This document shows positions 1,208 through 4,171 of a DNA stretch of 13,564 bases, piece by piece; within the stretch, counting starts at the first letter, position 1, and every line of letters starts with the position of its first letter. The position numbers and the translations under genes were made by a program. Source of the DNA: an uncultured bacterium (GTDB taxonomy: Bacteria > Patescibacteriota > Minisyncoccia > Phycocordibacterales > UBA1006); contig CAIQMU010000062.1 of the NCBI GenBank assembly GCA_903873095.1, positions 1 through 13,564 of the forward strand, written 5' to 3'. The notes beneath the pieces were generated by a model, which worked only from the letters and a program-made list of their open reading frames with translations, searched no databases and was not told the DNA's origin.

Positions 1208-1701
1208 TTAAGAATTTGTAAACTCCTCGCATTTTTTCAAAAGATCTCTGAATAGTTTATTGGCTGAATTAATATCAGTTATTGATTCTGGATTCATCAA
1301 GAGTTTTTTCTCAACAAAGTCCGTTATTTCACCGAGCGCTGTACGTGAAGATTGCAAAGCACCTCCTTTGTATGCTCCTATAAAATAGTCGATTTTGTTT
1401 TCCTTGATCAAAGTATTGGTAATTTCACCAAATACTCGAGATGGATACCATGAACCGCTCATCACATAAAGGATTTTGGTACCACATTTCAATTGCTTAA
1501 CATCTTCCAATGTTTCCAATATTTCAAATCTTACTGGTTTGCCTTGAAAATATGAATCGAGAAAACTTGGAGCAATCTTAAGAAAAATTGGATTATCTGA
1601 AAGGATTACAATTTTTTCAGGTGAAACTTTTAGTAATAATTGATAGAAGTTTCTGAGTCCCGGTATAAGAGCAATAAATGTTATGAATTTTTGTTTTTCA
1701 T
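1208..1701 (-). CDS. Hypothetical protein downstream of the ribozyme; start region frameshifted or unusual
   Basis: I do not recognise the family. The minus-strand frame ending at 1208 is open back to a stop at 1721-1723, but it has no ATG or GTG; its only standard start is a TTG at 1519, which would give 103 residues. The upstream part still reads like protein (FITFIALIPGLRNFYQLLL, then EKIVILSDNP), with alternating beta-like and helical stretches. An ATG at 1701 lies in the neighbouring frame, reads five codons (MKNKNS) and stops. A -1 shift at its AAA AAT codons, or one extra A in the run, joins it to the long frame and gives about 164 residues. The gene is therefore a recent pseudogene, a sequencing error in an A-run, a frameshift gene, or starts at a rare codon. 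It is about 83 bases downstream of the predicted ribozyme cleavage site. Confidence 0.55.
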
Positions 1702-1711
1702 GATTATTTAG

Positions 1712-1733
1712 TTTTAGGTTTTAAATGAACAAA
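1712..1733 (-). repeat. Leader block, copy 1 (upstream of the 1701 gene)
   Basis: This 22-base block matches 2209-2230 at 19 of 22 positions. Both copies lie on the minus strand just before a start codon and share a core reading GTTCATTTAAAA. Copy 1 ends 10 bases before the ATG at 1701. It is downstream of the ribozyme and would stay on the 3' cleavage product. Confidence 0.5.
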
Positions 1734-1737
1734 TATT

Positions 1738-1792
1738 TTTCTGTTTCGTCTTTTTAGACTCATCAGTCGGAATACACATTCCGAGACAGAAA
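1738..1792 (-). ncRNA. Hammerhead self-cleaving ribozyme, type III
   Basis: Read 5' to 3' on the minus strand, every conserved hammerhead element is present. Stem III 5' strand is UUUCUG (1792-1787), followed by U16.1 and C17 (1786-1785). Stem I is UCGGAAU/AUUCCGA (1784-1778 with 1773-1767), closed by GUGU. The core CUGAUGA (1766-1760) is followed by stem II GUC/GAC (1759-1757 with 1750-1748), which has the canonical G10.1-C11.1 pair and a UAAAAA loop. GAAA (1747-1744) leads to stem III 3' strand CAGAAA (1743-1738). Stem III is a perfect 6-bp helix and is the open stem, which makes it type III. The predicted cleavage falls between the bases at 1785 and 1784. It lies between two same-strand genes, so it could split their joint transcript. 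Activity is inferred from sequence only. Confidence 0.9.
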
Positions 1793-1811
1793 GGGTGATT
1801 ACTCACCCTTT
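1790..1811 (-). terminator. Hairpin over the stop codon of the 2204 gene, abutting the ribozyme
   Basis: Perfect 9-bp inverted repeat (1790-1798 with 1803-1811) around a 4-base loop. On the minus strand the TGA stop (1805-1803) lies in its 5' arm. The last three bases of its 3' arm are also the first three of ribozyme stem III. On the minus strand no T-run follows beyond the stem, so it is a weak terminator there and may instead be an RNA stability or switching element. On the plus strand a T-run does follow. Confidence 0.55.
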
Positions 1812-2204
1812 TTTAAAAATCAAAGATTTTCTTTTCGTAGCACCATCATTTTTCATAAAAACCTCAGACCCCAGTTGCTCCTCAGAATAGAAATCATCGT
1901 AAATTCCACGAATGGAACAATGATTTAATTCTTTCAAGGGCCACAAGGTCTTTAATTTTTTAGTGATTCTTCTACGAACAGTACGTGCATCTTTTTCAGA
2001 ATATGCATACTTATAAGGAACTCCGAATATACCTTCTTCAGCCACAATGATGTTATCTAACTCTCGAAGGAATTCATCACCTGCTGCGAAAAGATCTTCA
2101 ACTGAACCAAACCAAAAGAAGGTAACAGTGTTATTTCTCTCAATTCTGCAAGCGGCTCGTTTGTGATTATTTGTTACAAAGACTGTTTTAATTTGATGAT
2201 ACAT
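1803..2204 (-). CDS. Hypothetical protein upstream of the hammerhead ribozyme
   Basis: A 133-residue protein I do not recognise. It starts MYHQIKTVFVTNN, has a hydrophobic-aromatic patch (VTFFWFGSVEDLF, about 27-39), an acidic middle, a basic stretch ARTVRRRITKKLK at about 73-85, and a lysine-rich tail. There is no signal peptide or membrane helix, so it is probably cytoplasmic. The start is the ATG at 2204; unlike most genes here it has a leader of roughly 37 nt after an extended -10 box. The stop codon lies in a hairpin that runs straight into the hammerhead ribozyme. It probably shares a transcript with the leftward gene below 1701, which carries a near-identical leader block. It diverges from the winged-helix gene at 2337. 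Confidence 0.65.
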   Translation of the reverse strand: MYHQIKTVFVTNNHKRAACRIERNNTVTFFWFGSVEDLFAAGDEFLRELDNIIVAEEGIFGVPYKYAYSEKDARTVRRRITKKLKTLWPLKELNHCSIRGIYDDFYSEEQLGSEVFMKNDGATKRKSLIFKKG

Positions 2205-2208
2205 AATT

Positions 2209-2230
2209 TTTTATTTTTTAAATGAACTAA
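2209..2230 (-). repeat. Leader block, copy 2 (upstream of the 2204 gene)
   Basis: Matches 1712-1733 at 19 of 22 positions on the same strand and ends four bases before the ATG at 2204. A duplicated 5' leader suggests shared translational control, a shared binding site, or a duplicated gene start. Confidence 0.5.
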
Positions 2231-2336: not shown

Positions 2337-3164
2337 ATGCTCCTCGGAACAAAGAAAACCCTCTATGACCATATAACAGAAGCTCTATTACAAAAATCGC
2401 ACACCGCGATTGAATTAGGCTTGTATTTAAAGGATAAAAACGTACCAGCAACCGTGCAGGGAATTTATAAAGCACTCCGTGAATTAATTAGTGAGGATGT
2501 TGTTGTGAAACAGGGGATGCAGTACGTGATTAGTAATGTATGGCGCGAAAAGGCCGTAGGCCTTTTCGCGCCCAAATCCCGTTTCAAACTATCCCCCGGC
2601 GAAGACGCAATATATCGATTTAAACGACTCGATCATCTGGATGCATTTTGGAAACACGTACTCGCGGATATTGAAATCGAGATTGGCAACTATCCAACGT
2701 TTCATTTCACACCCCATCAGTTTTGGTCACTCGTTCCAGGGCGAAAAGAAAGTGAACAAGAGTTTTATAAAAACTTTGAAGACCACAATATTTACTCATA
2801 CACTGTTATTGGTGGGACAACCCATCTTGATAAAATTGCACGAGATTCCTTGAAAAATAATTTTCATCAAATTCATTTAGACGAACATATAAACATAAAC
2901 AGGTGCGACCACATTTCAATACTTGGTTCCTATGTTGTAACAACCCGTATATCAGGAAGACTTGCACAGCATATTGATATGGCTTATGAAACAGAACAAG
3001 ACGAAAAAAATATCGAAAAATTAATTTCTGAACTTTTCAAGAAGTTAGGATCGGTAACCATGATTGTTGAACATAACGAACACAAGGCACAAAAACTTCG
3101 CAAGCGACTTGCCCAAGATTTTCATATTCCAAGAGAATTACAAGATGAATTTAACTTGTTTTAA
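2337..3164 (+). CDS. Winged-helix DNA-binding protein, TrmB-like (hypothetical)
   Basis: 275 residues. Residues 1-65 look like a winged helix-turn-helix: helix YDHITEALLQ, then HTAIELGLYLK, then VQGIYKALRELISEDVVVKQ with a turn and a strand YVIS. The remainder (about 85-275) is a mixed alpha/beta domain with no catalytic motif I can name; it includes FHFTPHQFWSLVPG (about 122-135) and a basic C-terminal stretch HKAQKLRKRLAQ. The layout, N-terminal wHTH plus a sensor-like domain, resembles TrmB-type regulators, but this is fold-level reasoning. It lies 29 bases upstream of the 3194 gene, which has its own -10 box. A perfect 14-bp palindrome sits inside the reading frame at 2542-2572 and encodes about residues 69-79. 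Confidence 0.65.
   Translation: MLLGTKKTLYDHITEALLQKSHTAIELGLYLKDKNVPATVQGIYKALRELISEDVVVKQGMQYVISNVWREKAVGLFAPKSRFKLSPGEDAIYRFKRLDHLDAFWKHVLADIEIEIGNYPTFHFTPHQFWSLVPGRKESEQEFYKNFEDHNIYSYTVIGGTTHLDKIARDSLKNNFHQIHLDEHININRCDHISILGSYVVTTRISGRLAQHIDMAYETEQDEKNIEKLISELFKKLGSVTMIVEHNEHKAQKLRKRLAQDFHIPRELQDEFNLF
2542..2572. repeat. Perfect 14-bp palindrome inside the winged-helix gene
   Basis: The arms 2542-2555 and 2559-2572 are exact reverse complements around the loop GTA. The arms have a GC-rich end, an AAAA/TTTT middle and a GGCC tip, much richer in GC than their surroundings. It is in frame and encodes WREKAVGLFAP. On RNA it would form a very stable hairpin within the coding sequence. Confidence 0.9.
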
Positions 3165-3193: not shown

Positions 3194-4171
3194 ATGAACC
3201 CAACATTTACTCCATCAATCGAACAGAAAAAATCCACCGAGAAAGATCCAGGTGATTTTGTATTTGAATTTCTTGGTGATGCATCCGAATATTTACATGA
3301 AGACGCTCTTGCAAAAATAGTTTCGGATGCACGGCTCGCACAGCCGGAAATACTTACTGCCCTCAAAACACAAACTGAACACTCACGAACTGTCTCGTAT
3401 AATAAATTTAAAAAACGATTTACTGTTTCAGGGGAAGAAGGATTAACAATAGGAGCTATTGTTGCGGCACGACATATGGGTATTGATGTGAACTTGCCTG
3501 ACGAACTTGATCAATCTGGTGATGGAAAAAAATTACGAAAAGTACTTGTTCAGAAAATTTCGGAAGATCGTATCGCAACTAATGTTAATCGCGAACTTGG
3601 AACTATCTTGGCCGAGAAAACAAAGATGCGCGATGTATTGAAATCCGAGGCATACCAAAAGATTGCCGATCGTGCAGGAATTAAATCAGAGCAACTTGGT
3701 GTGCAAGCAGAACAGATTATGATGGGTGCACTCGAAGCAATCGCGATTGATCATTCAGACCTTGGACTTTCAATAACACCTGGAAATGCCTATCAAGATG
3801 TCGAAGAAAAAATCGACTTCATCATTTCAACAAAAACAAAAAGACGAGGGGTCGAGGTTGAAAAAAATGAAACAACGTTTGATGAAAAACATATCGGTAT
3901 TCAGTTCACGATCAATTCATCAAAACAAGAACACAAGGCAGATCAAATCAAGAAGGCAAAAGCACGTGGTGTCGATGTTGATGATATCTTGTATGTTGCT
4001 ATTGATATGAAAATACTTGCGCAGGCAATCAGTGATTGGAAAAAAGTAAACAAACCAGTCAAGGGGCCTTGGGCATATCTGCCAGAGCAAGTTCGAAAAA
4101 CAGCTATCACAAATTTCTTTGATTCGATATTAACACCTGATCAAATTCGTGGACTTGTAAATAATATCTAA
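3194..4171 (+). CDS. Hypothetical protein, possible PD-(D/E)XK-like nuclease fold
   Basis: 325 residues, no signal peptide or membrane helix. The N-terminal half is largely helical and charged. From about 172 the layout is helix QAEQIMMGALEAIAI, then strand KIDFII with D208, a charged turn, then strand HIGIQFTI with Q237 and T239, then a basic helix (about 244-258) and strand DDILYVAI. Helix, D in a strand, Q-x-T/K in the next strand, then helix and strand is the order of a PD-(D/E)XK core with Gln in place of Glu and Thr in place of the usual Lys. This is a motif-level suggestion; the protein may be an inactive relative or unrelated. It follows a winged-helix gene by 29 bases, so the two could work as regulator and effector. 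Confidence 0.6.
   Translation: MNPTFTPSIEQKKSTEKDPGDFVFEFLGDASEYLHEDALAKIVSDARLAQPEILTALKTQTEHSRTVSYNKFKKRFTVSGEEGLTIGAIVAARHMGIDVNLPDELDQSGDGKKLRKVLVQKISEDRIATNVNRELGTILAEKTKMRDVLKSEAYQKIADRAGIKSEQLGVQAEQIMMGALEAIAIDHSDLGLSITPGNAYQDVEEKIDFIISTKTKRRGVEVEKNETTFDEKHIGIQFTINSSKQEHKADQIKKAKARGVDVDDILYVAIDMKILAQAISDWKKVNKPVKGPWAYLPEQVRKTAITNFFDSILTPDQIRGLVNNI

Follow-up and report, generated by a model that had tools for sequence, protein, structure and literature searches.

A hairpin, a type III hammerhead ribozyme and a boxA-like motif at a gene junction in Patescibacteria

The slot and its ribozyme

In the window, by which we mean the whole 13,564-nt stretch of an uncultured Patescibacteria genome analyzed here, a hammerhead ribozyme (1738-1792, minus strand) lies between two orphan frames on its own strand. 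The upstream frame, a gene of 133 aa (1803-2204, minus strand), matches no Pfam family over the cut-off; in a large protein set it has, besides itself, one homologue (78% identical), and among 148 genomes of relatives it was found in two, once as itself and once as a weak match with stops. The downstream open frame (1208-1711, minus strand) has no in-frame ATG and can be read as a TTG form of 103 aa at 1208-1519; the ATG at 1701 meets a stop after 6 codons, and the 164-codon open frame starts just behind it in another frame (1681-1711). A protein search returned a 98% identical 103-aa form as its sole homologue, and in the 148 genomes it occurs once, as itself. The missing start may be a real frameshift, an odd start codon or an assembly slip, and the fact that the 98% identical protein is called in the same short TTG form is compatible with each of these causes. 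An earlier note on this DNA had placed the element between two orphan genes; Pfam, PHROGs and homologue searches bear out that position, and the upstream gene starting at 2204 stands, but its "1701 gene" lacks an intact ATG frame. The broken downstream start was not mentioned in that note, nor were the adjoining hairpin, the boxA-like motif or the recurrence of the element in regulator-led arrays.

Divergent from the slot is a gene (2337-3164, plus strand) for a protein with a predicted winged helix and PLD fold, a candidate regulator of the slot. Its family comprises 70 Patescibacteria relatives among the matches listed and has no Pfam counterpart, and when the existing match lists were looked at a second time, no fold besides the winged helix-turn-helix (wHTH) and PLD types stood out. 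The next gene (3194-4171, plus strand) is a conserved neighbor that also flanks a TrmB-led ribozyme array in a distant relative (L082), with which the window slot is collinear, as well as the slot of a genus mate (G001), which holds a different boxA-led gene. Compared with PHROGs, four proteins gave no phage function at E ≤ 0.01, the slot proteins gave nothing at E below 0.08, and the 2337-3164 protein matched a single entry whose function is unknown (E 5e-4); the genes around the slot look chromosomal.

The ribozyme was recovered by cmscan as Hammerhead_3 (RF00008) with 52.0 bits (E 2.9e-9; gathering score, 48.5), covering model positions 1-54 completely, and is the sole Rfam match above a cut-off within the window. 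In a separate structure check, stem I had 7 bp plus a G-U, stem II had 4 bp with G10.1-C11.1 kept, and stem III, which is open, had 6 bp plus the U16.1-A15.1 pair; by both approaches the invariant core and three helices are present. The earlier note's reading of a complete type III hammerhead is thus upheld, including by the Infernal comparison with the Rfam hammerhead models that it had proposed, and its minus-strand assignment, its coordinates and its predicted cut site between 1785 and 1784 are correct; that such a cut would part two messages, as the note proposed, is plausible. By its sequence features and predicted structure we regard the element as a genuine type III hammerhead. The genome to which it belongs (656,782 bases in 122 contigs) has no second copy. 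The extent originally given, 1738-1792, holds for the ribozyme, but the whole feature is larger and includes the hairpin and the boxA-like motif that flank it.

The hairpin (1791-1810, minus strand), predicted by folding, has 8 bp and a GTAA loop and adjoins the ribozyme on its 5′ side; the stop codon of the upstream gene (1803-1805) sits inside it, and it has two U in common with outer stem III. For the isolated 55 nt the minimum-energy structure is the hammerhead (-14.2 kcal/mol). When ribozyme and flanks were folded together (1733-1815), the fold beat all 200 shuffles (z -5.7), and the minimum-energy structure (-26.1 kcal/mol) consisted of the upstream hairpin with stems I and II, without stem III. 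The hairpin combined with a hammerhead having a 4-bp stem III came to -24.0 kcal/mol, 2.1 above the minimum, so the two can coexist, although the energy model does not favor it. A terminator scan did not accept the hairpin and found nothing terminator-like on the slot's strand. No slot promoter was evident, with 4 promoter-like sites found against 5.1 expected, and there are no tandem repeats in the window.

On the other side, 5 nt 3′ of the ribozyme, pattern matching places the boxA-like motif TTGTTCATTTAAAA (1719-1732, minus strand), and a second such motif, TAGTTCATTTAAAA (2216-2229, minus strand), precedes the ATG of the upstream gene by 11 nt. Both stand 11-17 nt ahead of an ATG. Two matches in the window by themselves are not above chance; their place and their recurrence in relatives are.

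The ribozyme family and its partners

RF00008 matches at E ≤ 0.001 were found at 46 places in 28 of the 148 relatives and in 30 of 379 genomes sampled from the whole phylum, with those over the Rfam cut-off numbering 2/148 and 2/379, respectively; 14 control genomes had none. The family is large and mostly below the Rfam threshold, and because most copies lie under the cut-off, the element escapes standard annotation. As to decay of the core in related genomes, which the earlier note had raised as grounds for doubting the ribozyme, the closest relatives hold no copies to compare (0/19 of the same genus or family), and in the 27 copies of like length that we aligned, CUGAUGAG and GAAA are invariant.

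That alignment comprises the 27 of 46 copies measuring 54-56 nt, other lengths being left out. In it, stems I and II are paired in every row (100% of cells) and stem III in 75.1% of cells; paired cells overall amount to 89.8%, compared with 67.2% in shuffles, and the covariation score is 0.729 against 0.259, a value reached by 0/500 shuffles. Three measures (paired cells, cells in which both partners have changed, and the covariation score) exceeded the 500 shuffles and every slid register, and the remaining two of five pair measures did not rise above the shuffles (113/500 for the number of pairs with both partners changed, 306/500 for that of further pair types). Judged by this pattern of pairing, the ribozyme family has been conserved as an RNA.

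Around the 46 copies, the order of hairpin, ribozyme and boxA-like motif tends to recur. The predicted hairpin on the 5′ side has a mean energy of -9.4 kcal/mol, compared with -4.8 in shuffles (z below -2 in 25/46), and ends 0-1 nt from the ribozyme in 26/46 copies; an adjoining H-type pseudoknot is possible in 15/46, as against 0-1 in eight shuffled sets. This upstream element differs in sequence and shape among copies, and the likeness of the upstream 60 nt is only slightly higher within a genome (0.43) than between genomes (0.39).

The boxA-like motif follows at an offset of -1 to 12 nt from the ribozyme's 3′ end in 24/46 copies, representing 15/28 genomes, whereas 1000 shuffled sets gave 0.97 on average and 5 at most; it is missing behind the other 22 and occurs in neither control stretch (0/46). 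The pattern that gave 24/46 is a loosened one that includes the last 4 nt of the ribozyme; a strict pattern, used first, gave 15/46 compared with 0.35 in shuffles. The motif stands within 12 nt of the ribozyme with or without a start codon nearby. In three cases AAAGGTCGAAARATTAT was seen in the place of boxA, after the ribozymes at 1859 and 5672 of one contig (L104) and at 3832 of another (L108).

The composite of ribozyme and boxA-like motif was also searched for beyond Patescibacteria, in a scan that selected for the motif and so serves taxonomy only. It yielded 47 genome stretches, 39 with a structure-checked hammerhead and 8 not folding as hammerheads. The 39 carry Patescibacteria lineage names in 28 cases, the bare name "bacterium" in 10, and Phycisphaerales in one (L066); this last shares its junction with a Wolfebacteria contig (L086) and is likely a binning mix-up. 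In viruses the composite turned up in a single stretch (L112), which was rejected because it does not fold as a hammerhead.

The earlier note had called a type III copy in such a genome unusual. Our results do not support this for type III as such: the plain type III pattern, used as a viral control, matched at least 120 viral stretches, and 81 copies were confirmed by the structure check. Among the viral matches listed, the hairpin lies within 0-1 nt of the ribozyme in 62/81 and has a mean energy of -13.4 kcal/mol against -6.6, upstream stretches being G+C-richer there (0.51 vs 0.44), and the boxA-like motif occurs in 1/81 (shuffles 1.5). Because the viral copies share the hairpin and not the boxA-like motif, hairpin plus ribozyme appears common to Patescibacteria and phages, and ribozyme plus boxA appears to be the Patescibacteria form.

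Regulator-led arrays and the nature of the motif

Many of the ribozymes occur among successive short genes on one strand, where a locus has 2-4 of them, spaced by some 300 to 2000 nt. The arrays preserve part of their gene order, and their ORF families recur in different genomes; of ten array proteins compared with Pfam, 7 had no family, 2 were weak Response_reg matches and 1 was His_Phos_1. The window shares with these arrays its short orphan genes on one strand and the hairpin-ribozyme-boxA junction, with one ribozyme only. An array in L036 has a promoter-like TTGACA-17-TAATCT and a boxA-like motif at its head and a hairpin with a T run at its end; a clear head with promoter and boxA was seen in L036 and L102 and not in L095, L105 or L034. 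At 4035-4600 of L036, a Nomurabacteria array, there are boxA-led units without a long ORF, possibly noncoding.

The commonest gene family in 59 loci is a TrmB-type regulator, present in 22. Its genes lie upstream of the ribozymes in 23 cases and downstream in 1 (sign test 3e-6, with loci taken as independent). The 59-locus count excludes duplicates (L066, L068, L080, L086, L087, L097, L107, L009, L011 and L014), needlessly, L018 and L021, neither of which has a TrmB gene, and loci in which the structure check failed to find the ribozyme again. Of 24 PF01978 matches in ten genomes, 8 lie less than 3 kb from a ribozyme. A TrmB operator between the TrmB gene and the first ribozyme was sought and rejected, the sole recurrent words being of the TTGACAAA type (15/21 gaps), which look like a promoter -35 element.

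The window's own genome has no PF01978 match, and the predicted wHTH-PLD gene takes that place instead. Array TrmB proteins have the same predicted layout, winged helix plus PLD, as the 2337-3164 protein, and it is in this predicted domain layout only that the latter resembles TrmB/TrmBL2 regulators (PF01978), since it matches no TrmB family in Pfam and its sequence does not resemble that of the L082 TrmB. Its family was considered as a marker of the arrays and rejected, a homologue in G002 not standing beside such a slot.

For the identity of the motif, we turned to rRNA leaders and to NusB. boxA recruits NusB and S10, and polymerase so modified resists termination (PMC10250234, as far as the portion consulted goes). 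A boxA-like stretch is present in 7 of nine 16S leaders from ribozyme-bearing genomes (shuffles 1.3, at most 4), by a short pattern that was set after looking at the leaders; the window genome's partial 16S is not among the nine. In several of these leaders a hairpin precedes the stretch, an order that was read by eye. NusB was found in 8/10 ribozyme-bearing genomes, including the window's own (PF01029, E 8e-34), and not in G108, which is 98% complete and has the motif, or in G020, which is 61% complete.

Interpretation of the junction

We interpret the junction as a place where one message is closed and the next is opened without a break in transcription, a reading to which we give a probability of roughly one half. 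One transcript would span both frames, and the ribozyme would cut it at the predicted site while polymerase is still elongating. The upstream message would then end in the hairpin, which would shield the new 3′ end, and the downstream RNA would start with a 5′-OH stem followed by a fresh boxA, likely re-arming antitermination. Since the cut would sever the tether made by a boxA further upstream, the next boxA would be expected directly behind the cut. The array would be switched by the divergent wHTH-PLD protein here and by TrmB elsewhere. In the arrays of relatives, the three-part junction probably parts the messages of genes of unknown role in a similar way. In favor of this reading count the Rfam score, the covariation, the frequency of hairpin and motif compared with shuffles and viral copies, the 16S leaders and NusB, the upstream position of TrmB and the collinear slot. 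Against it count the loss of stem III when the flanks are included, the two pair measures that do not exceed shuffles and the weaker pairing of stem III, the 22 copies lacking the motif, the missing NusB match in G108, the lone ribozyme, the lack of a TrmB gene, an evident promoter and a downstream start codon in the window's case, and the absence of copies from the 19 closest relatives. Whether all of this forms one operon design of Patescibacteria, in which cleavage takes the place of termination, hairpins or pseudoknots cap the messages, boxA reloads antitermination and a TrmB-type wHTH-PLD protein acts as the switch, is a more tentative proposal, of which we are doubtful as yet.

Among the alternatives, one retains the first half of this scheme: cleavage by the ribozyme and capping by the hairpin would take place as they do in phage gene clusters, and the boxA-like motif would be a leader or start-site signal that plays no part in antitermination. 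The viral copies, having the hairpin without the motif, would fit this view, as would the position of both window motifs just ahead of an ATG and the lack of a NusB match in G108. However, the motif stands behind the ribozyme regardless of a start codon, leads the ORF-less units in L036 and resembles stretches in 16S leaders, and we consider such a signal unlikely, although it is the most serious of the competing explanations.

Alternatively, the ribozyme could be a relic of a phage or another mobile element with no role in its own genome. Type III copies are common in viral contigs, the same-family relatives have none, the neighbors are orphans, and the part of PMC3088659 that we draw on describes clustered hammerheads in prophages. 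Such an origin is nevertheless hard to reconcile with slot proteins that receive no phage call from PHROGs, with a boxA composite whose one viral stretch does not fold as a hammerhead, with a core that has been kept and with a slot whose gene order parallels that of an array in a distant relative; we think it rather improbable.

One could also envision a switch in which hairpin or pseudoknot competes with the ribozyme, so that cleavage is set by translation up to the upstream stop codon or by a ligand and controls the downstream gene. The stop codon within the hairpin, the two U shared with stem III and the loss of stem III at minimum energy are what such a device would predict. The upstream element is varied, unlike an aptamer, and a hairpin ending 0-1 nt away in 26/46 copies needs no competition, and the chance we allow this explanation is slighter again. 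Paired ribozymes releasing units that become circular RNAs in the manner of retrozymes are very improbable. Several genomes do carry more than one ribozyme on the same strand, but the window's genome has one copy and the window no tandem repeats, and RtcB ligase is found in 0/10 ribozyme-bearing genomes as against 9/14 controls. We give equally little credit to the junction being a site of DNA recombination in a cassette array like that of integrons: related genomes carry different genes in a slot and ORF families recur across genomes, but the ribozyme has been conserved as RNA, part of the gene order persists and there is no recurrent integrase in the arrays, a XerC-type gene occurring in 4/59 loci. 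In the window, L041 and L082 the XerC-type gene belongs to a block that also contains exoIII and methyltransferase genes.

Our preferred reading, the cut followed by re-armed antitermination, touches on several known systems. With RF00008 the window element shares fold, core and open stem III, together with a score over the cut-off, whereas most relatives found here are sub-threshold and the hairpin and boxA-like partners are no part of that family. In prophages, according to the portion of PMC3088659 at hand, several hammerheads flank single genes of unknown role, and RNA processing has been proposed for them; the arrays are alike in having ribozymes flanking single genes, and the listed viral copies share the adjoining hairpin, whereas the arrays differ in lying on Patescibacteria chromosomes and in having the boxA-like motif, a TrmB-type gene upstream and no phage genes. 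The boxB-boxA leaders of rRNA, as presented in the consulted part of PMC10250234, likewise have a hairpin and then boxA, and several 16S leaders here show this order with a boxA-like stretch, but in the junction hairpin and motif are separated by a ribozyme, and protein-gene arrays contain the motif repeatedly. In the open-licence literature we found no paper on hammerhead ribozymes in Patescibacteria or the candidate phyla radiation and, by titles and the beginnings of abstracts, none describing a hairpin-ribozyme-boxA system. What is new is the combination of hairpin, ribozyme and boxA-like motif at one junction, and the position of such junctions in arrays headed by a regulator.

What hammerheads do in bacteria has been named an open question (PMC6155905, in the section available), and a ribozyme with fixed partners makes that role testable. 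If our reading is true, the ribozyme makes the ends of messages, a hairpin on one side and a 5′-OH stem on the other, and boxA restarts antitermination. The hairpin that adjoins viral type III copies among the matches listed suggests that part of this answer may hold for phages as well. For the bacteria themselves, a vast branch with few cultured members, it would mean operons organized around an RNA enzyme in the role of the terminator.
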